This document shows, in pieces, positions 9,689 through 21,491 of a stretch of DNA of 21,704 bases. Position 1 is the first letter of the stretch; every line of letters starts with the position of its first letter. The position numbers and the translations under genes are program-made. The DNA is from a virus: the IMG/VR virus record IMGVR_UViG_3300017755_000136, positions 1 through 21,704 of that record. The stretch is one strand, 5' to 3'. The notes below the pieces were generated by a model. That model was not told the DNA's origin. It did no database searches and saw nothing but the letters and a program-made list of their open reading frames with translations.

Positions 9689-10300
9689 CTATTTGTTTTT
9701 CTTTTGTTTAGTAATCTTCTTCATCTTTTCGATGTATGCACGATAGACATTTGCTTCTGCTGTCTTACCCATCACTCTTGCTCTTTGTTCCATAGCAATC
9801 GCTGCTTGTATTTTGTGTGCATGAGTTCTACTAGAAGATTCTATTTTATTTACACTTGTCTTTGCAGTTTCAACATCTTTGAAACCAAGACCATGAATAG
9901 TTCCTTTCGGATTTTCGTCCGTGTATAAATCTGAGTGTTTGTCTGACCCAGCTGGTTGACCTTTTTTTCTAGGTATTCTAGATGCTTCGTATTTTGCTAG
10001 AATCCTTTCTCGCATCAGGTTTTCACTTTTTGTTCTATTTTCGATAAACCTACGAATAACGTTCTCTCGGTCTTTTTTTCTTTTCTTCATATGAACAGGG
10101 ACAATCTTTTCTGGATTGTCCCCTGCTCCTGCTACTGAGGATGTGCTTGTCATCTCCTCATTAGCTTCTCCCTTTGCTCTTTTTAGTTGGTTTGGAGTCG
10201 GTGCGCCCTTCTCCCCCTTCTTTCTCATCTTCTCACCAGAACCTCTTTTGATTCTCTCTCTTTTCTTGTGAATGTTTGCCCAGAGACTTTCGTAATTCAT
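9689..10300 (-). CDS. conserved basic marine-phage protein
   Basis: The 203-aa product is strongly basic. The N-terminal 45 residues contain a module (ESLWANIHKKRERIKRGSGE, then APTPNQLKRAKGE) found as a recurring block in T4-like marine phage proteins. The C-terminal block (about 130-198), including THAHKIQAAIAMEQRA and ANVYRAYIEKMK, is another recurring domain of unknown function. The middle is low-complexity and charged. Its start overlaps the stop of the upstream gene (ATGA). A virion-internal or DNA-associated role would fit charge and neighbourhood, but no direct evidence is visible. Confidence 0.75.
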   Translation of the reverse strand: MNYESLWANIHKKRERIKRGSGEKMRKKGEKGAPTPNQLKRAKGEANEEMTSTSSVAGAGDNPEKIVPVHMKKRKKDRENVIRRFIENRTKSENLMRERILAKYEASRIPRKKGQPAGSDKHSDLYTDENPKGTIHGLGFKDVETAKTSVNKIESSSRTHAHKIQAAIAMEQRARVMGKTAEANVYRAYIEKMKKITKQKKNK

Positions 10301-11637: not shown

Positions 11638-12813
11638 TTATTTACCTCTACGATTATTCATTCTTTCAAGAAATTCTTTTGCAGCCTTTGTGCGACCATC
11701 AAAAGGATTTTGATTTTCTGTATCTTTTCTATTTTCACCTGCAAGTTCACGGCGGGCAAGTTCAACCATTGATATAGAACCATCTTTAGTATCCATATCA
11801 ATATCCTCTTTTACATTAGTGTCACCACTCTGATTATCTTGAGGACGTTTACCTGATTTGGGTTTCGTTCCATCTTTCTCAGCTTTGGTAGTTGTAGCAA
11901 CACCATCCTCATAATTGTCTTCTATTTTCTTGTCAGACTTCTTATGAGCATTTTCAAATTCTTTAGACTTAGGAGACTCTTTATCATCATAGTCTTCACC
12001 ATTGTTCTGGTCTTGCTTACGTTTTCCCTTATGCTCTGCTTCCCATAAACGTTCGAACATAGAATTTAACTCGTCAATCTCTTCTCCGATTTTTGAGATT
12101 TCTGCTGTCTTATCGTCTGTTTTTGGGTTTCCATTTTTCTTTTTCTTTTTCTCATCATCTCCATTGGCGGTATCGGGTTTATCCTCACCATTCTCATCAT
12201 CACCATGTTCGTCTTCCTTCGTTATTGCTTTACTGACCGCTTTTCTTCTCTTGTGAAGATACTCGTCAGATGAATCTACATCACCATCGTTATCGATGTC
12301 TTTGTCTTTACGGTCTTTGAACTTTTTCTTGACTGCTTTAGGTTGGACTTTATCCATACCATCACCATCGTCAGACTTGTCGTTAGTGTTGTCTTCTTTT
12401 GAAAGTCTTGCTTCCTCTGCTTTCACATCATACTCTTTTCCACCAACTACAAATTTTTCATCACCATTCTTTTTTGCAGCTTGTAGAGCCGCACCGAATG
12501 CATTACCTTCAGTTTTCTTTTTCTTCATATGATGGGCTTCTTCGATGACTTCCATGTCAGAGGCAGGAACTTTCTTCTCAAGACCATGCTTGAACTGAAC
12601 GTCATACCACTCAACATTACCTTCATCATCAGGTATTGCGTGTGATTCATAGACAGGTTTACCAAGACCCCATTCAGGGTGGTTGACTGTGATTGCACAG
12701 TTGTGGTCTTTGCTGTGACACAGTTCTTTTATTTCGTCATCCGTATAACCGATTTGTGGCGAAACTACGGATGCAAATGCCTCACCCAATCTTTTTATGT
12801 CAGAAGTTCTCAT
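11638..12813 (-). CDS. acidic/lysine-rich protein with EF-hand-like calcium loop
   Basis: This 391-aa protein has an ordered N-terminal region of about 95 residues (GYTDDEIKELCHSKDHNCAI, then the NHPEWGLGKPVYES block), followed by a very long Lys/Asp/Glu-rich low-complexity region. Within that, residues 172-183 (DIDNDGDVDSSD) match the DxDxDG calcium-binding loop of EF-hand and dockerin repeats, flanked by basic helices. It ends in a short ordered helix (GRTKAAKEFLERMNNRRGK). Possible T4 prohead-protease sites occur at IEE|A (90-93) and LWE|A (256-259). Composition and context fit a head core, scaffold-like or internal protein that is proteolysed during maturation, but no known scaffold is recognised. 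Confidence 0.7.
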   Translation of the reverse strand: MRTSDIKRLGEAFASVVSPQIGYTDDEIKELCHSKDHNCAITVNHPEWGLGKPVYESHAIPDDEGNVEWYDVQFKHGLEKKVPASDMEVIEEAHHMKKKKTEGNAFGAALQAAKKNGDEKFVVGGKEYDVKAEEARLSKEDNTNDKSDDGDGMDKVQPKAVKKKFKDRKDKDIDNDGDVDSSDEYLHKRRKAVSKAITKEDEHGDDENGEDKPDTANGDDEKKKKKNGNPKTDDKTAEISKIGEEIDELNSMFERLWEAEHKGKRKQDQNNGEDYDDKESPKSKEFENAHKKSDKKIEDNYEDGVATTTKAEKDGTKPKSGKRPQDNQSGDTNVKEDIDMDTKDGSISMVELARRELAGENRKDTENQNPFDGRTKAAKEFLERMNNRRGK

Positions 12814-12831: not shown

Positions 12832-13134
12832 TTACATCCACTTGTTCACGCCAGTGGCGGCGACTATAGCTGCTAATAAAATCCAAAAGGCCTTTTGAAT
12901 GAAACTAACGACTCGTGAGTTATCATTCACCTTATCGTTCAGTGCATCAAGTTTTGACGAGAACTTATTCATGCGTTCATGTTGATTCGCATTGTATTGT
13001 TCTATAGATATGAGTCTTTCCTCTGCCCGAGCAATAGAAATCATTGCGTCAGCAAGTTTATCAATCTTTTCCTCAATACGGTCTAACCGTTGAGTTTGAG
13101 TCTGTCTCGCCACTTGTCTTACTTCCTGTTTCAT
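12832..13134 (-). CDS. XhlA-like coiled-coil protein with C-terminal membrane anchor
   Basis: The 100-aa product starts with a long amphipathic coiled coil (about 15-78: LDRIEEKIDKLADAMISIAR through KLDALNDKVNDNSRVVSFIQ) and ends in one hydrophobic segment (about 82-98, AFWILLAAIVAATGV). This layout matches the XhlA/haemolysin-associated phage proteins that work with a holin at the membrane. The holin lies 3 kb downstream in the same transcription direction. The gene is directly preceded by the best late promoter in the window. A role in lysis timing is therefore plausible, though tail or membrane-tether roles cannot be excluded. Confidence 0.7.
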   Translation of the reverse strand: MKQEVRQVARQTQTQRLDRIEEKIDKLADAMISIARAEERLISIEQYNANQHERMNKFSSKLDALNDKVNDNSRVVSFIQKAFWILLAAIVAATGVNKWM

Positions 13135-13432: not shown

Positions 13433-13966
13433 TCACCAAAAGAAGTTTCCACCACCACTTAATCCTAATTGTTTTGCATATCTTGGTAATCGACACGCCC
13501 AATATCCAGCCTTTGTTTTATCGTTTTGTTGGTCACATCTATGACGAGCGGCAAATGATTTACGAGCCTGCTTGTCATTTAGTTTGACCTTCAATCCTGT
13601 GGTGTCACCCCATGTAACCTTCTTCACGTTACCACTTGAAGGGTCACGAACATACACATAGTATTTCTTCGGCCCACCTCTCTTCGGTTGATTTAGAGGC
13701 ATATCTTGTTTGTCTTCTTCAAAGATACAATCTAGTGCGACATTTTCTCCACGCCATTCTGCGAACTCGCCGAGGTCAGACTCCATGATATCTATATCTG
13801 CGACATCTAACTCAAGGTCACCTGCATAATACTTCTCTCTTGCTTCACGAAAGTATTCGAAATACTTCTCTGACCCAACACGAAAAATGTTGTTTTCAAT
13901 AAGAGAAGAGCAAGTACCACAACACTCATCAGTTCCACAATCTGTGTGTTCAGTAAATGTTTTCAT
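13433..13966 (-). CDS. Cys-rich N-terminus plus conserved marine-phage C-terminal domain
   Basis: The 177-aa protein begins MKTFTEHTDCGTDECCGTCS, with Cys10, Cys15, Cys16 and Cys19 forming a possible metal or redox site. A middle acidic region follows. The last 75 residues (KRGGPKKYYVYVRDPSSGNV, then KSFAARHRCDQQNDKTKAGY, and WACRLPRYAKQLGLSGGGNF) make up a domain that recurs at the C-terminus of many T4-like marine phage proteins; its arginines, histidine and paired cysteines suggest a small zinc- or nucleic-acid-binding fold. The start overlaps the preceding stop (TAATG). Function is unknown to me; the recurrence of the domain suggests a virion-associated module. Confidence 0.75.
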   Translation of the reverse strand: MKTFTEHTDCGTDECCGTCSSLIENNIFRVGSEKYFEYFREAREKYYAGDLELDVADIDIMESDLGEFAEWRGENVALDCIFEEDKQDMPLNQPKRGGPKKYYVYVRDPSSGNVKKVTWGDTTGLKVKLNDKQARKSFAARHRCDQQNDKTKAGYWACRLPRYAKQLGLSGGGNFFW

Positions 13967-15201
13967 TATCTACCTAAGATTTTCTTGATGTCTGCGAGAG
14001 ACCTGATGCTCTTTTGGAATTTCTCTTTTTCATTCGGTTTTGAAAGGCCATCAAAACGAGCCAATGTCGCTTTCGCTTGGTCTCTAGAAACTTTTCCTTT
14101 TCCTCTGTTAAATACAACTTCTGCTCCTGTTGGTAAATCAGCCGCCTTACGCAACTGCATGATAATATTTTTAGAAGCAGCCTTTCTATCGTCATCGGTT
14201 GCTTCAGTGTCTTTGTCTTTTTTGGTGAGTGCCATACCTTTGGTTGCACCACGAGACTTCATCGCTCTTCTCGCATCAGCAGCGGCACTTGCCTCATTCT
14301 TTGGTTTCTCACCACGTTCTTTCTTTGAGATTGCAATCGCAGCTTGTTGAGCAGGAGAGACTGCTTCACCTAAACCTTGTTTAAGTTTGATTTTAGGTAA
14401 TGCTCTTTGAAGATTTTTGAACTGAGCATCAGATAAGATAATTTGGCCACCAATTTCGCTTGCGCTTGTGCCTTTTTTGACAGTTATCTCAACTCCTAGT
14501 TTTCCTTTACCAGCCGCAAACCTTACTATTTGTATACCACCTTTATTGTATAAATCGGTGGCTTCATTAAGTTCGACTTCTTCAGCAAGCAACCAACCCT
14601 TTGAGAGATACTCTTTCTGTTTCGATTTGTCGATAACGATAACCTTGTGTCGTTTACCTGACATCATCTTGACAACCATAACTTCTTTCTTAGGGTCAAT
14701 CAACTGACGAACAGATTTTTCCTCTGCAACACGTTTTGCCGTGGCGGTTGCAATTGCCATCTTCTTGTCCATAGGCATGTCAGGTTCGTCCTTTTTCATT
14801 GCTTTCGCTATTTCATTTCTTTTCTTTATCTCAGCGGGAGTGAGTGTTTTCTCTTCAACAGACTTAGACTTCTTTACCAAGGAGGTAACTGTATCTATAT
14901 GTCCTTGATGATAATCATGGTCATCAGCACTTAGTCCTGCATCTGCAATTTTCTTTTTCGCAACATCAACCATACCTTTCATTTTTTCAAGGTCAGTCTC
15001 ATCAATATTACCATCAAGACCTTTTCTTTCAATTGCAAGATAGTCATCTACTGCTTGGGCTGCACTAAGAATTTCTTCTTTATTGTCTTTGGTCTCGTAA
15101 TCTTTTTTAAACGCCTTTATTGCGCCAGGACATAATTCCATATCGTCAAAGGTTTTATTTCCTATTTTTGTTTCTTCAAATAAATATCTAAACTTTTTCA
15201 T
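13966..15201 (-). CDS. modular polyprotein-like late protein with prohead-protease-type sites
   Basis: This 411-aa lysine-rich protein looks like three modules in series. Module 1 (1-213) begins MKKFRYLFEE, resembling a capsid-targeting leader, and contains a recurring block LTPAEIKKRNEIAKAMKKDE (about 120-139) and a strand-rich MVVKMMSGKRHKVIVIDKSK segment. Module 2 (214-279) is a small mixed fold (GIQIVRFAAGKGKLGVEITV). Module 3 (280-411) starts with the recurring block AVSPAQQAAIAISKKERGEK and ends in a basic helical domain. The module boundaries coincide with LNE|A (211-214) and LGE|A (277-280), which match the (L/I)xE|A cleavage rule of the T4 prohead protease. The start overlaps the upstream stop (TAATG). 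Likely an internal head protein processed in the prohead. Confidence 0.7.
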   Translation of the reverse strand: MKKFRYLFEETKIGNKTFDDMELCPGAIKAFKKDYETKDNKEEILSAAQAVDDYLAIERKGLDGNIDETDLEKMKGMVDVAKKKIADAGLSADDHDYHQGHIDTVTSLVKKSKSVEEKTLTPAEIKKRNEIAKAMKKDEPDMPMDKKMAIATATAKRVAEEKSVRQLIDPKKEVMVVKMMSGKRHKVIVIDKSKQKEYLSKGWLLAEEVELNEATDLYNKGGIQIVRFAAGKGKLGVEITVKKGTSASEIGGQIILSDAQFKNLQRALPKIKLKQGLGEAVSPAQQAAIAISKKERGEKPKNEASAAADARRAMKSRGATKGMALTKKDKDTEATDDDRKAASKNIIMQLRKAADLPTGAEVVFNRGKGKVSRDQAKATLARFDGLSKPNEKEKFQKSIRSLADIKKILGR

Positions 15202-15467
15202 TACGCTAAGTCCTTATCGTGATTTAAGTTGCCCTTTTTCTTTTTTACAATAAATGCATTAACTCGTGCATATCCCCACTGAGAAGGTGTTGTGCCAGGC
15301 CTGTGTCCAGTTCTCCATGCGGCAACACCACGGTCAAAGACTTTCTTGAGTGTTCCATAAGAGATACCAGACTTCGATGCTTTCTTTGCAAGTGCCTCAT
15401 TTTTTTCCTGAAGAGACTCGTCCAGTCTCTCTGCATAAAATTTTCTAAAGGTTTTTCTGCCACTCAT
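15201..15467 (-). CDS. small conserved phage protein, DUF5824-like
   Basis: The 88-aa product has a charged N-terminal helix (KTFRKFYAERLDESLQEKNE) and a conserved compact domain at about 28-73: KASKSGISYGTLKKVFDRGV, then AAWRTGHRPGTTPSQWGYAR and VNAF. I recognise this SYGTLKKVxxRG/TGHRPGTTxxQW pattern as a family of unknown function in large phages, likely DUF5824, though I cannot verify the number. The basic-aromatic composition suggests nucleic acid binding. Its ATG overlaps the stop of the 498-aa gene (ATGA), and its stop overlaps the next start. Confidence 0.8.
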   Translation of the reverse strand: MSGRKTFRKFYAERLDESLQEKNEALAKKASKSGISYGTLKKVFDRGVAAWRTGHRPGTTPSQWGYARVNAFIVKKKKGNLNHDKDLA

Positions 15468-16960
15468 GGTTGTGTCTCTCTGTTTTTTTGTTGTGCTTTT
15501 GCGAGTCGTCTTGCATCTCTTGCTTTATCAAGAGTTGCACGATATTGTTTTTTCAAGTCTTCTTTATCATCTTTATAATCAGTTCTTATTTTTATAACCT
15601 CTGGGTCAGTCTCAGCCTTCAACTCAAGATGTTTTGGAAGAAGACCTTTCTTTATCATCTGATTCATATACTGTAGAACTTGTCTTGGAGATTCGACACC
15701 AAGTTCATGTCTCAGAAAATCATACGCACCTGATTGTCCTGCCTTCGGATTCTTACGTCTCCAATCAAGATACAATCGAACCGCCTTCTGATATTTCTTT
15801 TTGTTTACAATTTTATCCAATGCTTTATCTAAGGCTGGACTCAACACTCCTGTCGCAGACTTCGTGCCAAACGCACCAGTGCTACCTATCTTTTCATCAA
15901 ACATCTTCTTATATGCTTTGGTATACTTTGATGGTTTGGTCTCTGCACCCTTATCGCCAGGCGCTGGTTTGTATGCAGATGGGTCATCATCATCCTTTGC
16001 AGTGCCTTTCTTGAAATGTGCGGCACGTTTCTTCTTGGTTGACTTTGACATGTCATCGCCTTCAGCATCCTTCGCATAATACTTTGCAGGCTGTGTTCCT
16101 TTTACATCCTTACCAATCTCTTTGTCCTGACGTGCTTTCTTCTCGACCAGTTCTACATCGTCTAACCACTTGCGATATCTTTTTTGATTCACTTCTACAA
16201 TGACATAGTTCGCACCAAGCATAGAGACAATACCAACCTCTCCACTTTCTTTGATAATAACATCATCACCGATTTCAAACAAATCACCTGAGACATATGC
16301 CTCACGAGTATCGTCTAATTTACCTAAATCGATATGACGTTTGAAAGAACGTTCTTCTTTGATACCAAGTCCTGCTCGAACTTTGTTAAAGAGTGTGCGA
16401 GTATCTTTGTCAGAAAATCCTTTGGGAACACCCTGTGCGAATGCCGCATAGTCATTATCCTTTGCTGACGCACGTTGCTTGGATGCAGACATTCCTTCAA
16501 CACCCTCTGCATCAGGGTCACGTTGACCAGCAGATACAATATTGATTGTCTCGAAGTTATAAAAACCATGTTTGGCTTTCTTACCATTGTATTTTTTCAA
16601 TAGAGTTTCGAACTCATTCAAACGGTCTTGACCGACAACCATGTTGATTTTACGATATCCCAAATCATAAAGTTTTGCGGCTACGTCAAAAACATTACGA
16701 ATCTTTTTATCGGCAATGATATTGCGACCATGTTTGGGAAACATCTTACGAAGAGTTTTGATTTTATCAGAATAAGACAATGGGTCTTTCTCACCTGTTG
16801 TCTGAGATACAAAGATTTTATAATCTGCACCTCTCGCCTTTTTAACAATCGTATCGATAACTTTACCATGACCAATTGTCGGAGGATTCATTCTACCAAA
16901 TGTAAAGAATACCTCACGTTCCGACTCAACCAGATACGATTTAAAATTCTTAATTACCAC
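15464..16960 (-). CDS. nucleotidylyltransferase fused to conserved phage modules
   Basis: The 498-aa protein carries an N-terminal HIGH-type nucleotidylyltransferase domain (about 15-180): GRMNPPTIGHGKVI with the TxGH motif (Thr28-His31), a GQDRLNEF segment, and MSASKQR (157-163), which matches the ISSTxxR nucleotide-binding motif. Such domains transfer AMP or CMP in NAD or lipid precursor synthesis. C-terminal to it lie a KOW-like module (GDDVIIKESGEVGIVSMLGA, about 233-270), a disordered Lys/Asp region and a helical module (AVRLYLDWRRKNP onwards). I chose GTG 16960: AAAGG lies eight bases upstream, it overlaps the preceding stop by 11 bases, and the product then begins with a leader-like NFKSYLVESE. 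The frame is open to an ATG at 17032, but that would overlap the upstream gene by 83 bases and add a very basic, unlikely N-terminus. Confidence 0.8.
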   Translation of the reverse strand: MVIKNFKSYLVESEREVFFTFGRMNPPTIGHGKVIDTIVKKARGADYKIFVSQTTGEKDPLSYSDKIKTLRKMFPKHGRNIIADKKIRNVFDVAAKLYDLGYRKINMVVGQDRLNEFETLLKKYNGKKAKHGFYNFETINIVSAGQRDPDAEGVEGMSASKQRASAKDNDYAAFAQGVPKGFSDKDTRTLFNKVRAGLGIKEERSFKRHIDLGKLDDTREAYVSGDLFEIGDDVIIKESGEVGIVSMLGANYVIVEVNQKRYRKWLDDVELVEKKARQDKEIGKDVKGTQPAKYYAKDAEGDDMSKSTKKKRAAHFKKGTAKDDDDPSAYKPAPGDKGAETKPSKYTKAYKKMFDEKIGSTGAFGTKSATGVLSPALDKALDKIVNKKKYQKAVRLYLDWRRKNPKAGQSGAYDFLRHELGVESPRQVLQYMNQMIKKGLLPKHLELKAETDPEVIKIRTDYKDDKEDLKKQYRATLDKARDARRLAKAQQKNRETQP

Positions 16961-17396
16961 TACCGCCGCCTTTTTTCTTTTCAATCTCTTTCTTACGAAT
17001 CTTCGGAAGCATCTTCCTCGCAAGTTTATCAATCTTTGGTTTCATCTTATCTAGACGTTTCTCAATATCTGTTCTTCGTGCTAATCCAAGGTCACTCTTA
17101 TCTTGACCCTTTGTTATTTTCTTAGCAAAGAAGTTCCTTGCTTGTTTGGCAGCTCTTTTCTTGAGAACATCAACAGATGCAACTTTTCTCTCTGCTCTCT
17201 TACGACCAAGAGCAATTTTTGCTTTCATCTTTTTCATCTGACGAGATTTTGCCATGCGTTGTTGCACAGTGAGTGCCTCATAAGGGCCTTCACCATCATC
17301 ACGTTTACGTCTTTTGGCATTGTATGCTAACTGACCATCACCTGTTTCAGTGTAGTCAACGGTAAGAAAATCTTTAAAACCTAATGGTTTTGGCAT
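16950..17396 (-). CDS. very basic DNA-binding-like conserved phage protein
   Basis: The 148-aa protein starts MPKPLGFKDFLTVDYTETGD, a block recurring in marine T4-like phages, then DGQLAYNAKRRKRDD. From residue about 45 it is an almost continuous series of Lys/Arg-rich helices (MAKSRQMKKMKAKIALGRKR, KLARKMLPKIRKKEIEKKKG). The charge suggests tight DNA or RNA binding, as in internal head proteins. No enzyme motif is present. It starts five bases after the stop of the ligase-like gene. The FKDFLTVD segment resembles the leader motif of neighbouring proteins, which supports, but does not prove, packaging into the capsid. Confidence 0.78.
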   Translation of the reverse strand: MPKPLGFKDFLTVDYTETGDGQLAYNAKRRKRDDGEGPYEALTVQQRMAKSRQMKKMKAKIALGRKRAERKVASVDVLKKRAAKQARNFFAKKITKGQDKSDLGLARRTDIEKRLDKMKPKIDKLARKMLPKIRKKEIEKKKGGGSGN

Positions 17397-17401
17397 TTGG
17401 T

Positions 17402-18622
17402 CTACCTCTTTGGTTTATCCCATCCCTTCAGCACATCAGGACTGAAGTTGTTATACGAAAATTCAAGGCGGTCAACCAACTTGACCGCATCACCACCTAA
17501 TTTGTCAATCGCAACAAAACCTTCCGCACCTGTAGTCTTATAACCAGTTTTGGTTTTTACAAAAGCGTCATAGTTTTGTATACTATTAAGTTTATTTATA
17601 AGTTTTAATTTTGCTAATACAATATTTTTCTGTAGTTCAAACATATTGACGAGAGACTTCTTGTTCTTGTTTGAAAAAAAGGTGAGAATATCGTCTAATT
17701 TCTTTTGTTGAGTCGCTTTACCCTTCTCACTCTTTCGTTTTTCTATCTCTTTTGCGAACTTATTCTCAATCCATTTGATAAGACCTGTGACATGTCTACG
17801 ACTATCAGGTATCATCTGTCCTTCACGCACATATGTATTGTTGTATTGTTCGATGAGTTGTGCAAGTTCTTGATTGTTCTCTAGTTCACGCAGTGTCGAA
17901 CCTGCAATCTTATTGAATATCTTACCAGCCGTTGACAGGTTCTTGGTAACTTCGGCAGTCTCTTTGTCATCCATAGTTGCACCACCGACATCACGCAACA
18001 TCGCATCTGCTGAGTAAACATTCTTAGATGACTTGAACTTAGATACATCAACACCATACTTTGCTTTCATCGACTCGAAGTCTTTACCTGTATAGGTTGT
18101 GTGCCAAACAATACCAATCTGTGCTTTGCGTATGGTATCTGCCTGTTCGTATGGAACAGCATAGATAATTGTATTGGGGTGAAAGGTTGTGTATTTCTGT
18201 CCATCGATTTTCTTCGTCTCAACGTCTCCTTTTGAGAACAAGAAGTCTCCTTGAATAACACCCTTGATATTAAGGTCTGGTAGATACTTCAACGCAGCCT
18301 TCATCTTATCTGCAAGGTCACCAGACATATCTGCATCAATCTCTGCATTGGTTTTATAGACCTTTGGATTCTTAGCAAAGATACCTTTCTTTGCGACAAA
18401 GAACTCACCATCACGAGGGTCTTGACCACAAAAGATTGCAGGCGCACCATCCCACTTGGTAGATAGTTTACTTTTAGACTGACCACCTAACATATCACGC
18501 AACTCACGCAATGCATTGATTGCCTGTCGTGTTCCATTCACACCACCATAGAGAACCTTATCCTCGATATGGGTCATGTGAGTGTTCTTCTGTTCTGTTA
18601 TATAATTTCTAAAACCAACCAT
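17402..18622 (-). CDS. ligase-like covalent nucleotidyltransferase
   Basis: The 406-aa protein shows the motif series of the DNA/RNA-ligase and capping-enzyme superfamily. Motif I is KWDGAPA (Lys56, Asp58, Gly59), where the lysine would carry AMP. EFFVAKKG (73-80) and GVIQGDFLFS (121-130) fit the motif III area, AEGFV (366-370) fits motif IV and VKLVDR (380-385) fits motif V. Motifs III and IV are separated by more than 200 residues, including a predominantly helical insertion (about 215-345), so this is not a standard ligase; I recall related cyanophage proteins listed only as a DUF family (possibly DUF6267). The protein starts MVGFRNYITEQK, a leader-like motif. RNA or DNA end sealing or nucleic acid adenylation is plausible. 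It overlaps the sulfotransferase stop by 14 bases. Confidence 0.7.
   Translation of the reverse strand: MVGFRNYITEQKNTHMTHIEDKVLYGGVNGTRQAINALRELRDMLGGQSKSKLSTKWDGAPAIFCGQDPRDGEFFVAKKGIFAKNPKVYKTNAEIDADMSGDLADKMKAALKYLPDLNIKGVIQGDFLFSKGDVETKKIDGQKYTTFHPNTIIYAVPYEQADTIRKAQIGIVWHTTYTGKDFESMKAKYGVDVSKFKSSKNVYSADAMLRDVGGATMDDKETAEVTKNLSTAGKIFNKIAGSTLRELENNQELAQLIEQYNNTYVREGQMIPDSRRHVTGLIKWIENKFAKEIEKRKSEKGKATQQKKLDDILTFFSNKNKKSLVNMFELQKNIVLAKLKLINKLNSIQNYDAFVKTKTGYKTTGAEGFVAIDKLGGDAVKLVDRLEFSYNNFSPDVLKGWDKPKR
17593..17600 (-). promoter_or_regulatory. TATAAATA box inside the ligase-like gene
   Basis: An exact TATAAATA on the minus strand lies about 200 bases upstream of the basic-protein start at 17396. 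It could serve as an internal late promoter for that gene and those after it, but it is within coding sequence and may be a chance match. Confidence 0.35.
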
Positions 18623-19196
18623 TGTCGTAATCTTCTTTATATATTTTTCTTATATCATCTATCATCTTGAGTGATAAATCTTTCTCTTTCCAAATCGATT
18701 TTGATATTGTAGCCTTTACTCTATCAAGTTCACAATCAATCTCATTCTCAATAAATGTCACACATTCCTCAAAGTTTTCAAAATCAAATACCTTATCATA
18801 CTGACTTAGGTCACCCCCACATTCATATTGAGAACGAAACTCTGGTCTTAAAGGCCAGTATTTTCCACCATTTATAATCTTTCCTATTTCCCATTTAGTC
18901 CAATCTGGAACTTTTTCATTATATCTTGCTTTCATAAAACCATAAAAGTTTATTGAAAAATTCACTGCACTTAAATATCTTTTTATCGGGTCTCTCTTTA
19001 TCGTTATTCTTTTCACATTCCGAAACTCATTTGAGACCATAGAATTTTGTAAAGTCAAGTCATACCAGTTTGAGGTAACTTGTTTACTCTCAATGCCATT
19101 TAGATGTGACCACATAATCTTGAGTGATGACGAACAATTTTTCGGTATCAAACAAACATCTAAAACATCATCAAAGTATAATACTTCACTAACCAA
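18609..19196 (-). CDS. small PAPS-dependent sulfotransferase-like protein
   Basis: The 195-aa product has the two PAPS-binding signatures of the sulfotransferase 2-type family: the 5'-phosphosulfate loop CLIPKNCSSSLKIMW (15-29) and the 3'-phosphate motif TIKRDPIKRYLSA (65-77) with Arg68 and Ser76. The remaining sequence, with VFDFENFEECVTFIE near 134-148, fits a short single-domain enzyme. Family members transfer sulfate from PAPS to carbohydrate or other hydroxyls. The start is a TTG at 19196 overlapping the upstream stop by eight bases, with a GGA about seven bases before it; no in-frame ATG is available near the N-terminus. By eye it is more AT-rich than its neighbours and splits two virion-type genes, suggesting a later acquisition. 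Its acceptor is unknown. Confidence 0.8.
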   Translation of the reverse strand: MVSEVLYFDDVLDVCLIPKNCSSSLKIMWSHLNGIESKQVTSNWYDLTLQNSMVSNEFRNVKRITIKRDPIKRYLSAVNFSINFYGFMKARYNEKVPDWTKWEIGKIINGGKYWPLRPEFRSQYECGGDLSQYDKVFDFENFEECVTFIENEIDCELDRVKATISKSIWKEKDLSLKMIDDIRKIYKEDYDNGWF

Positions 19197-20499
19197 CTTT
19201 TAATCCATTATAAAGTGTTTTCAAACTCCATTGTTTAAGTTTACCACCTGAACTCGAACGAACCGACATTGCAAGCGTTACCTTCTCGTCTCCCGACCTC
19301 AATTCAATAAACCAGTTCTGTTTCGAACTCCGAGATGAATATGACTTCACGAATCTAACCTGTGGTAGAAATACTCCGAGTTGGTCTTTGTCTGTTATCT
19401 CTTCATATGTTCCACTCTTCTCTATTGCTTTAATAACAATAGTCGGAACATCAGGTGCATCTCGAAGTATTGCCTCTTTGATATAGTTCAAAGTCGCATC
19501 TTTGTTCTGATTAAATCTTTCAACCAATCCCTGACGAACAATCTCCAGATATTCATCATAGAGTTTGTTTTGTTCTTTGGTCGGAAGTTTATTGATGGTT
19601 GCGATTGCTTTTGTTTTATCAGGGTGACGGCCGCCTTTACCACCATCGTGATTACCATACTTAGGAAAATCAGGTATCTTTGAATAAACCTTATCATATA
19701 CTTTTTTTCGAAGGGCCTCTTTACCTTTAGCGTCATTAAAAGAAGGGCCACTTCTCTCGTTCACAAATACAGTATAATGATAAGTGTTGAGTTGAGGTTC
19801 TTTGGTTTTCTTACCACCAGACTTGAGTGATGCACCAAGCATCTTTCCATCTTGATATTCAATAAACATATCGCCTGGATGATTTTGTGGGACACCTTTT
19901 GGTTTTGCTCGATATCCCCAATACACTCTTCGTATTGGTTTATCTTTATTTTCATCAATCAAATAGTTGTAAATCGAAATTGCAGCCTTCATCTTTTCGA
20001 AATATTTGGATGATGAGTCTGCTCTCTGTAATGTATCTTTTGCGGCCGCTTGGTCTTTAGCACCTACACATTTAAGTTTGCGAGTATCAACTGAGAGTAA
20101 TCTTTCCATTAATTTGTCAATGTCTTTGTCAGACATACCTGTCGGTTTGATTTGACGTTCAAACATAATACAGGGAAAGAGTTCGGTGATGCTTGCATTG
20201 AGTGTAGATTCTCCCATGCCGCCCTTTTTGGGTTTTACGAGAATTATAAATTTACGACCTTCATGTTCTCCGTAAATAGGGTCAACCGAAGATGCGCTTG
20301 TTTCTCTTTTTTCAGCACTAATACCTGCATTCTTCAGTCTACGAAGAATCTCATCTCGGTCAGTTTCACGGTCATCAGACGTAACACGAAATTCTATTCT
20401 CGATTTCTCACTTGCAGATTTCTGAGTATACTCAAATCCTGAAAACACATCTCCAGCGAGTTCAAAGTCTTCGACTAAGTAGTGATTAAAAGATTTCAT
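19189..20499 (-). CDS. possible PD-(D/E)XK-like nuclease with leader-like N-terminus
   Basis: The 436-aa protein opens MKSFNHYLVEDFELAGD, close to a T4 capsid-targeting leader. A small alpha/beta domain follows (RIEFRVTSDDRETDRDEILR). The most conserved-looking part contains GMGESTLNASITELFPCI (95-112, acidic Glu97 and Glu106) and, after a helical stretch, NHPGDMFIEY (206-215) then LGASLKSGGKK (221-231). Asp210 and Lys226 are spaced as in the active site of PD-(D/E)XK nucleases, with Ser-Leu-Lys in place of ExK. I do not recognise the family, so nuclease activity is an inference. A late promoter lies directly upstream, and the stop overlaps the sulfotransferase start. Confidence 0.65.
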   Translation of the reverse strand: MKSFNHYLVEDFELAGDVFSGFEYTQKSASEKSRIEFRVTSDDRETDRDEILRRLKNAGISAEKRETSASSVDPIYGEHEGRKFIILVKPKKGGMGESTLNASITELFPCIMFERQIKPTGMSDKDIDKLMERLLSVDTRKLKCVGAKDQAAAKDTLQRADSSSKYFEKMKAAISIYNYLIDENKDKPIRRVYWGYRAKPKGVPQNHPGDMFIEYQDGKMLGASLKSGGKKTKEPQLNTYHYTVFVNERSGPSFNDAKGKEALRKKVYDKVYSKIPDFPKYGNHDGGKGGRHPDKTKAIATINKLPTKEQNKLYDEYLEIVRQGLVERFNQNKDATLNYIKEAILRDAPDVPTIVIKAIEKSGTYEEITDKDQLGVFLPQVRFVKSYSSRSSKQNWFIELRSGDEKVTLAMSVRSSSGGKLKQWSLKTLYNGLKVG

Positions 20500-20535
20500 C
20501 GATATCCCATTTGTTACAAAAGTGTATTATAACAC

Positions 20536-20543
20536 TATTTATA
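20536..20543 (-). promoter_or_regulatory. T4-type late promoter, TATAAATA
   Basis: An exact TATAAATA on the minus strand overlaps the exonuclease stop codon. The predicted start near 20530 leaves a leader of about 30 bases with GGGA five bases before the ATG at 20499. Spacing and position are good, so this probably opens late transcription of the internal-protein block. A TATAAT follows nearby but has no matching -35 box. Confidence 0.6.
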
Positions 20544-21219
20544 ATAAAACGGAAGTGTTATTTTCTTTATTGTATTGTTCAATGGTATCTTTGAGACTAT
20601 TGACCCAATTATCACGATGTTCGATAAAGACTTGAGGTTCATCCATACCATCAACAGAGATAATTGTAACCAACTGAGTGATAGGCATATCTGTGCGTTC
20701 TTCCCACATGATTGCATAACCAGACTCTTGCATGAAGTAGTTCTTAATCATTGAGGGTGTTTTACGTTTACGACTTGTCTTGAAGTCAATGATAGATAAC
20801 TTACCATCAAACTCTGCAACGCAGTCAACACGACCAGCAAGACCTAGATGTGTAGAATAAAGTGGGGCTTCCTGTGCATATACTTTTCCAATACGTTCAT
20901 CAAGAGTTGGTTTCATAACAAGAAACGACTCAATGATATCAGGTGTATATCCATCTTTGAAGTTCGGGTCATTGTCAATATACTTCTCGATGATTTCGTG
21001 AACCTTTGTGCCTCGTGATGATGCACGATGAGAGATACGATTGGCTTCCTCTTCACCGACACGTTTACGCCATGCGGCGATACCTGCACGACTTAGAATG
21101 GATAAGACTGTCGTGATAGAAGGAAGGTTGACTCCTTCGGGTGTCACATACTTACGACCACCATCAACATTAATGGTTTCCATTTCAGTGAGTTCTGTTT
21201 GTTCATGTATAAAGGTCAT
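20539..21219 (-). CDS. PD-(D/E)XK exonuclease, RecB/Cas4-like
   Basis: The 226-aa enzyme carries the full motif set of RecB/Cas4/MGME1-like nucleases: RGTKVHE (His74), AQEAPLYS (Glu117), GRVDCVAEF (Asp132), LSIIDFKTS (Asp145 and Lys147) and QESGY (Gln164, Tyr168). Such enzymes degrade single-stranded or broken DNA ends; in phages they act in recombination, replication or host DNA breakdown. I chose ATG 21219 because it forms an ATGA overlap with the stop of the preceding membrane-protein gene; the open frame extends to 21318, but that start would overlap 103 bases and adds no conserved sequence. It has no four-cysteine iron-sulfur cluster like Cas4 (only one cysteine is seen). Its stop codon is embedded in the late promoter. 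Confidence 0.9.
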   Translation of the reverse strand: MTFIHEQTELTEMETINVDGGRKYVTPEGVNLPSITTVLSILSRAGIAAWRKRVGEEEANRISHRASSRGTKVHEIIEKYIDNDPNFKDGYTPDIIESFLVMKPTLDERIGKVYAQEAPLYSTHLGLAGRVDCVAEFDGKLSIIDFKTSRKRKTPSMIKNYFMQESGYAIMWEERTDMPITQLVTIISVDGMDEPQVFIEHRDNWVNSLKDTIEQYNKENNTSVLL

Positions 21220-21491
21220 GCTATTGCTTTCAGTAATCCAACGACTAGAATGATAAACATCGTTGTGTTTAAAATAATCAGGGCTCGGTCTTGCCAAATC
21301 ATAGACACCCATCCCCATAGTGCAGTTCCAACCACACCAAAGATAAGGTCATAGAGTGCATACTCAGGGCCTGCTGACCTACAAATAACACCTGCAATAA
21401 TAAAGGCTGTCGCTGCCCATTTGACATACCAATCAATAGTATATGAGGGTGTTACCTTCTCGATTAGATTTGTGTTATTTTTTTCTGCCAC
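21216..21491 (-). CDS. small three-span membrane protein
   Basis: The 91-aa protein has a polar N-terminus (MAEKNNTNLIEKVTPSYTID) and three hydrophobic segments at about 22-38 (YVKWAATAFIIAGVICR), 46-66 (LYDLIFGVVGTALWGWVSMI) and 69-90 (ALIILNTTMFIILVVGLL). Start codon is GTG at 21491 with a GGAGAGG ribosome site, overlapping the upstream gene by 17 bases. The layout resembles small marine phage/bacterial membrane proteins of unknown function. It could be a second holin-like or transport-related protein, but no motif decides this. It is coupled by ATGA overlap to the exonuclease. Confidence 0.75.
   Translation of the reverse strand: MAEKNNTNLIEKVTPSYTIDWYVKWAATAFIIAGVICRSAGPEYALYDLIFGVVGTALWGWVSMIWQDRALIILNTTMFIILVVGLLKAIA

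Follow-up and report, generated by a model that had tools for sequence, protein, structure and literature searches.

Enzyme genes of a marine T4-like phage begin with leaders that resemble T4 capsid-targeting sequences

Why do several neighbouring genes for otherwise unrelated proteins begin with a similar short motif in a marine phage? The question is raised by the virus record IMGVR_UViG_3300017755_000136, a fragment of a T4-like marine phage without head genes, whose whole length of 21,704 bases is referred to here as the window. A preliminary description of this DNA had listed four such genes, compared their N-termini with T4 capsid-targeting leaders and proposed that the enzymes behind them ride inside the capsid and enter the host with the DNA. 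In T4, proteins with such leaders dock on the scaffold, are trimmed by gp21, packaged and ejected (PMC9026906, PMC3012670; here and below, published work is cited from those portions of each paper that were available). We located all four N-termini on the minus strand: MKSFNHYLVE in 19189-20499, MVGFRNYITE in 17402-18622, MVIKNFKSYLVE in 15464-16960, when read from the GTG start at 16960, and MKKFRYLFEE in 13966-15201. That N-termini in the window carry a T4-like leader motif is a genuine observation. There is good support for regarding these leaders as T4-type capsid-targeting sequences, from their residues and spacing, their restriction to N-termini, their gain and loss independently of the adjoining domain, the protease and scaffold of a relative, a late-promoter box ahead of the first carrier and the virion proteomes of relatives. 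With a probability of roughly 0.8, we propose that the enzymes would be packaged in the head, trimmed by the protease and delivered with the DNA into the host.

Mutational data assign leader residues 4 and 7 of T4 to targeting and residues 8 and 10 to processing (PMC9026906). From these data we fixed beforehand a strict motif with an aromatic residue at 4, an aromatic residue at 7, an aliphatic residue at 8 and Glu at 10, allowing the start position to shift; since the residue roles were mapped in T4, the motif is independent of the window. It was found in 3/107 six-frame open reading frames (ORFs) of the window, all within the run of leader genes: in the phrog_2496 protein (leader at 20470..20499, minus strand), the DUF6267 protein (18593..18622, minus) and the nucleotidylyltransferase (16925..16960, minus). 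The register is exact in 17402-18622 and 19189-20499 and lies two residues later in 15464-16960. The strict motif is absent from 13966-15201, 15201-15467, 16950-17396 and 13433-13966, so that three of the four N-termini originally grouped together share it and MKKFRYLFEE does not. Short degenerate N-termini can look alike by chance or through composition, and the motif is short: in T4 it matches 4/633 ORFs, only two of which, IPII and IPIII, are internal proteins. Against this stands a control in which residues 2-20 of 28 plausible window genes were shuffled: the three observed matches compare with a mean of 0.03, and 0/20,000 shuffles reached three, with one start used per gene and the leader-bearing GTG taken for the nucleotidylyltransferase, a choice that slightly favours the motif. 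In Phage C48C1 (Kyanoviridae, 156 kb), the closest complete relative found, with a DUF6267 protein 66.3% identical to that of the window, 7/714 ORFs match, five of them inside 61.8-68.4 kb, the orthologous cluster.

We also built a leader profile from 123 distinct leaders of IMG/VR relatives. MKKFRYLFEE ranks 5/71 ORFs by this profile, to which its own family had contributed nothing. Further leader variants, overlooked in the preliminary description, are present in 15201-15467 (MSGRKTFRKFYAERLDE, with a poor score and rank 13), 16950-17396 (rank 4) and 13433-13966. This profile of marine leaders detects those of T4 poorly (IPII at rank 8, IPIII at 16, IPI at 94 and Alt at 105 of 438) and is thus too narrow for T4, which is why the strict motif from the T4 mutational data was used as well. 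The C48C1 orthologue of the basic protein 16950-17396 starts MLSFKQFVSE. The annotated start of the C48C1 nucleotidylyltransferase, at 63514, omits the leader, and a GTG at 63448 includes it (our locus L154 23448-24857, corresponding to C48C1 63448-64857); leaders of this kind may go unseen in databases when the start codon is GTG or TTG.

The leader is confined to protein N-termini, as expected of a T4-type capsid-targeting sequence. A profile score of at least 10 was reached by 151/3424 N-terminal ATGs versus 4/4857 internal ATGs of the same loci and, when the trained families were set aside, still by 25/3147 N-terminal ATGs (p 2.5e-7); thresholds of 8, 12 and 14 left the outcome unchanged. 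This stricter comparison was made because an earlier scan had tried each ORF at several starts, for which reason its 289 proteins are not counted as real leaders. Scores of at least 8 occurred in 1/966 ORFs of random DNA and at 30/7719 internal methionines.

Comparison of homologues bears out the expectation that the leader is conserved independently of the domain behind it. DUF6267 proteins fall into two clades, and the leader core is present in 77/95 distinct proteins of the window type versus 0/50 in the clade of S-SZBM1 (p 5e-24, with related sequences counted as independent), whose inspected members begin directly at the conserved KNTH. Eight of the 18 window-type proteins without the core were inspected: six have variants (for instance MLSFADTLTEQ or MTTILHLPDFLYEQ) and two are truncated. 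The DUF6267 protein of Stenotrophomonas phage DLP6 has the leader MMKFTQFLAE, and in one Melnitz-type phage a further leader gene (MQGFKTFLSE) precedes DUF6267. Nucleotidylyltransferases carry the leader in four groups (67/70 in the window's own, 43/43, 31/36 and 2/2), and the stretches that follow it are quite different. The full core precedes 25/46 stand-alone DUF5824 genes versus 0/11 copies fused behind a nucleotidylyltransferase (p 0.0013; the search reached up to 60 residues ahead of stand-alone domains and 30 ahead of fused ones). Among 19 aligned relatives of the phrog_2496 protein, the ten whose rows reach the N-terminus carry the leader, and the stretch behind it diverges. The leader is therefore a module, gained and lost independently of the following domain and common to otherwise unrelated proteins. 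Between the DUF6267 clades it is gained or lost exactly at the domain boundary, and this, together with the shuffle and internal-ATG controls, leads us to disfavour chance or composition, which we consider very improbable.

Are proteins with such leaders found in virions? In S-CREM2, 52 of 219 proteins were reported from virions (PMC10665884). The leader profile, trained without S-CREM2, gave its four best ranks of 219 to the nucleotidylyltransferase, an APH-like kinase, ORF13 and an S-adenosylmethionine (SAM) hydrolase, all four virion-detected; rank 5 (ORF32) was undetected and rank 6 (ORF15) detected. At thresholds of 10.5, 8, 6 and 3, the profile picked out 4, 4, 5 and 5 of 28 non-structural virion proteins versus 0, 1, 3 and 8 of 167 undetected ones (p 3.5e-4, 0.0016, 0.0018 and 0.024; rank test p 0.0056), with thresholds chosen after the scores were seen and with ORFs 13, 14 and 15 being neighbours. 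The strict motif occurs in 3/28 non-structural virion proteins versus 0/167 undetected ones (p 0.0027). Widened to residue 30, it adds the detected Cas9-like ORF12 and ORF136, and also ORFs 30 and 71, which match yet went undetected and so lend something to a chance resemblance. In S-SZBM1, with 30 virion proteins out of 218 (PMC9146016), strict matches at annotated starts are ORFs 3 (43 residues), 140, 191 and 192, and the virion list includes only ORF140; summed over both phages, 4/7 strict matches were detected (p 0.021). In S-SCSM1, of which 190 of 228.8 kb were covered by our scan, the strict motif occurs at the annotated starts of ORF91, which is flagged as a virion protein, and ORF30; the record labels ORFs 89-93, 95 and 97, the stretch around the nucleotidylyltransferase, as virion proteins.

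Within families, leader-bearing nucleotidylyltransferases were found in virions in 4/4 cases (S-CREM2, S-SZBM1, S-SCSM1 and S-SM1, the last tied to its virion data through cluster number T4-GC190), and leaderless members in 0/4: the DUF6267 proteins of S-SZBM1 and S-CREM2 and the nucleotidylyltransferases of S-PM2 and PA5oct. That of S-PM2 is fused behind a C-terminal part of DUF6267, has no leader and is reported as not detected; that of PA5oct lacks the mass-spectrometry note borne by seven of nine other features in its stretch. This contrast (two-sided p 0.029) is suggestive rather than decisive, since the proteomes differ in depth; the comparison was limited to these eight proteins and left out P-HM2, DLP6, Melnitz, CBB, C48C1, the DUF6267 protein of S-SM1, S-CBWM1, in whose virions an NMNAT was reported, and S-CREM1. 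Taken at family level, the published virion data suggest packaging. The shared N-terminus might instead dock another partner, such as a cytoplasmic enzyme complex, the tail or the baseplate, with virion detection reflecting contamination or tail association. The S-CREM2 authors could not exclude co-purification of virion enzymes (PMC10665884), and virion lists seem to hold non-virion proteins, as with RegA in S-SCSM1; the residue register nevertheless matches the targeting and processing positions of T4, and the leaderless relatives were not detected in virions. We regard such a partner as improbable.

Several observations weigh against packaging and delivery by way of the leader. All virion evidence comes from published proteomes of relatives. 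T4 IPI and Alt do not match the strict motif. In S-CREM2, virion ORFs 155, 156 and 160 lie in the syntenic stretch and have no leader. The S-SZBM1 proteome alone shows no enrichment, with 1/4 strict matches detected (p 0.45). In S-SCSM1, ORF30 is not flagged, virion-labelled ORFs 89, 90, 92 and 93 lack the strict motif, so that among those inspected only ORF91 has a leader, and the record flags even the translational repressor RegA (ORF70), probably a contaminant, as a virion protein, so such lists may hold contaminants. For S-CREM1, with 14 virion proteins, the available text names no NMNAT and a figure legend lists one (PMC9964418). Finally, the full core was found in 2/20 stand-alone relatives of the domain of 13433-13966 and in only 1/70 of the domain of 16950-17396. 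These last two counts also led us to reject the notion that a leader of its own goes with each separated domain in the cluster.

S-SZBM1 ORFs 191 and 192 (locus L359, 22311-23125) and S-SCSM1 ORF30 (44215-44535) have perfect leaders (MKSFKSFLSESVNISGDFNG, MKTFKQYITEAKNC and MKTFKQFMSESVNISGDFNG) and are small genes of the head-gene region, absent from the virion lists as far as these were available.

If the leaders act as in T4, the machinery and the timing should be in place. In C48C1, genes for a head maturation protease and a scaffold lie beside that of the major head protein. The gp21-type protease that the preliminary description proposed to look for elsewhere in the genome is present in this relative, as is a gp22 scaffold; the window fragment itself has no head genes. 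The sequence TATAAATA is the T4 late promoter consensus. In the window it is matched exactly at five sites, each on the minus strand, with 0.78 expected and 0/100 shuffles reaching five. One of them, at 20536..20543 (minus), lies 36 nucleotides before the ATG of 19189-20499 and another shortly before 12832-13134; at least two of the five are inside genes. As an alternative late box, CTAAATA was tried and rejected (2 matches versus 3.27 expected).

With these elements, the most likely course of events would be that the leader genes are read late, that their products bind to the scaffold core of the prohead through the N-terminal peptide and that a gp21-type protease cuts after the leader Glu. 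Once freed, the enzymes would remain beside the DNA inside the head and be passed to the next host together with it. Cleavage, packaging in the window phage, injection and a role in the host are extrapolated from T4. By that analogy the role would most likely be early protection or repair during the first minutes of infection, with the ligase-like enzyme perhaps sealing RNA or DNA and the NMNAT-like enzyme perhaps acting on nicotinamide adenine dinucleotide (NAD) or nucleotides; such a pairing of ligase and nucleotidylyltransferase would fit the repair of RNA or NAD. The leaders could also target the proteins to the prohead core only for work there, in assembly, DNA packaging or end processing, or for degradation, with no delivery to the host. 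The same machinery would serve, the T4 core proteins gp22 and gp67 are cut to fragments (PMC9026906), and our computed results do not separate injection from residence in the head. Even so, T4 internal proteins and Alt, which have such leaders, are ejected (PMC9026906), and the leader-bearing SAM hydrolase and APH-like kinase in S-CREM2 virions suggest host targets. We therefore think that a purely head-resident role is unlikely, and favour delivery into the host.

What, then, are the carriers? The leader genes and their neighbours form one minus-strand run from 13433 to 21318. The DUF6267 protein (17402-18622; PF19782, E 6e-107) is predicted to be an RNA-ligase-type nucleotidyltransferase, and its earlier label as ligase-like holds up. 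It contains KWDGAP (K56), QGDFLF, EGFVAI (E367) and VKLVDR in the order of what we take to be ligase motifs I (KxDG), III, IV (EGxV) and V. A regular-expression search of seven family members found motifs I and IV in 7/7 and III and V in 5/7. Its AlphaFold model is of middling quality (predicted local distance difference test score, pLDDT, 72.3; predicted template modelling score, pTM, 0.56) and has no Foldseek match below E 0.001. In a second structure comparison, the RNA editing ligase REL1 came top (Z 6.5 over 122 residues at 3.5 Å), tied with an unrelated helical domain; 30/50 rows were DNA, RNA or tRNA ligases or ligation complexes, and the aligned range would place K56 near residue 87 of REL1, the nucleophile of that ligase. 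These results fit, without proving, a covalent nucleotidyltransferase of RNA-ligase type.

The protein of 15464-16960, with its GTG start at 16960, likewise retains its designation as a nucleotidylyltransferase, of a cytidylyltransferase/NMNAT-like kind. It belongs to the families of phrog_3041 (E 4.4e-65) and phrog_395 (E 1.1e-62), in a PHROG scan that used the longer TTG start at 17032, and contains TIGH and MSASKQR, which we take to be HxGH-like and ISSTxxR-like motifs. Other authors call its relatives NMNAT-like. A sequence search of solved structures returned nothing relevant for DUF6267 and nothing for the nucleotidylyltransferase. The third strict carrier, the phrog_2496 protein (19189-20499, 436 residues; PHROG E 2.6e-82), is a candidate nuclease-like or nucleotidyltransferase-like protein. 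Invariant GD210 and SLK226 form a candidate PD-(D/E)XK site, and it could be a nuclease of that type from these residues; Foldseek gave weak matches to both Cas4-family proteins and nucleotidyltransferases, the best structure comparison (Z 8.9) covers 89 residues of a uridylyltransferase, and searches of Pfam and of solved structures gave no match. Models of defence genes matched none of 7 proteins, and NCBIfam gave only matches far below its curated cut-offs, with none for the nucleotidylyltransferase. The isoelectric point (pI) is 9.4 to 9.7 in the three strict carriers versus 5.4 in a leaderless sulfotransferase-like protein of the same run.

The remaining genes of the run are all on the minus strand. 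An exonuclease with a PD-(D/E)XK match (20539-21318) has no leader. The sulfotransferase-like gene (18609-19196; PF03567, E 8e-5) starts with TTG and lies between two genes that have leaders, but has none itself. A very basic protein of 148 residues (16950-17396, pI 10.5) begins with the leader-like GFKDFLTVD, which has no Glu. The DUF5824 protein (15201-15467; PF19141, E 2.5e-18) has the variant MSGRKTFRKFYAE at 15429..15467 (minus). The protein of 13966-15201 is basic, has 411 residues and had no Pfam, PHROG or phage-collection match; that of 13433-13966 has 177 residues and the N-terminus MKTFTEHTD, with relatives that include MKRFSQFISES and MKKFSQFIEDK. At 15201-18622 the window has one gene each for DUF6267, the nucleotidylyltransferase, the basic protein and DUF5824, which are fused in other phages (phrog_455, phrog_3041, DLP6, Melnitz, S-PM2). 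The 13966-15201 protein is a mosaic, segments of which match different proteins in relatives, with LxE/A or KNE/A sites between some segments. It may be a precursor that is processed into a number of internal peptides.

Other N-terminal arrangements occur near these genes and in relatives. In one group of nucleotidylyltransferases and in two S-CREM2 proteins, the APH-like kinase (two copies) and the Cas9-like protein, the leader is followed by a second module, some 45 residues long (AKKLNLKSDGHGGWYDSRGEFVAKTEGGKLKFYDK; loci L169 18819-20048 in S-SCSM1, L170 28256-29419 in S-SM1 and L159 7704-12846 in S-CREM2). Within the loci examined, a leader-like core lies just before it in 42/43 distinct matches; it was not found in the window. 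The acidic protein of window 11638-12813, which contains the EF-hand-like loop DIDNDGDVDSSDE, has an N-terminus of another kind, MRTSDIKRLGEAFASVV. Its relatives show a comparable helix-like pattern at their start, and S-SCSM1 ORF92, a weak homologue, bears a virion-protein label. The protein of window 9689-10300 begins MNYESLWANIHKKRERIKRGSGEKMRKKGEKGAPT, and several relatives have a capsid-type leader (e.g. MKGFKEFNEEMTATGSVAGAGD) before the shared part, so that two N-terminal modules seem to be interchangeable in this family.

How do the window carriers compare with known head cargo? The T4 internal proteins IPI, IPII and IPIII open with a similar leader, roughly ten residues long, of the pattern aromatic-xx-aromatic-aliphatic-x-Glu and in the register of IPII and IPIII (MKTYQEFIAEA); they too are basic, and otherwise unrelated proteins share the leader. 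IPI is an inhibitor of a restriction enzyme; IPIII, required for growth on one E. coli strain, has been proposed to counter a defence (PMC9391042). The T4 proteins have 95-193 residues and are cleaved and packaged, whereas the window carriers, whose cleavage and packaging are predicted, are conserved enzymes or enzyme-like proteins of 406-498 residues, elsewhere sometimes parts of fusions. The ADP-ribosyltransferase Alt is, like them, a large enzyme, head-carried and ejected in T4, but it starts MELITELFDED, which fails the strict motif, and belongs to another enzyme class. The NMNAT-like or cytidylyltransferase virion proteins of S-CREM2, S-SZBM1, S-SCSM1 and S-SM1 have a domain homologous to that of the window nucleotidylyltransferase and a leader, and were detected in virions. 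The available portions of the papers on these cyanomyoviruses do not tie detection to the leader, and the window differs from them in adding leaders on the DUF6267 and phrog_2496 proteins. The ejection proteins of giant phages of the SPN3US/phiKZ type are also head proteins trimmed by the prohead protease and ejected; they belong to another phage group, and the likeness is by description, with no comparison of leaders.

In the open-licence literature, which leaves most subscription papers outside, we found no paper that connects capsid-targeting sequences with enzymes in marine T4-like phages. The signal is already known; what has not been described, as far as these searches reach, is its occurrence on large enzymes that are conserved, sometimes fused, and found in tagged and untagged forms. 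Virion proteomes of marine T4-like phages repeatedly include enzymes that have no structural role, and for one such proteome its authors could not separate cargo from co-purified protein; a readable packaging tag would let one predict which phage proteins are injected. It is tempting to speculate, quite tentatively, that Kyanoviridae and their relatives use modular packaged enzymes through gain and loss of a ten-residue tag, and that in the lineage of the window an RNA-ligase-like enzyme passed from the enzymes that are expressed to those that are injected. The ligase, the nucleotidylyltransferase and possibly a nuclease might then form a repair kit that answers first-response defences, such as tRNA cleavage and NAD depletion, before phage genes are expressed. 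A packaged RNA-ligase-like protein, if true, would extend T4-type head cargo beyond small inhibitors and Alt, and the natural pairs of the same enzyme with and without the tag allow one to ask why a phage would carry an enzyme rather than express it.

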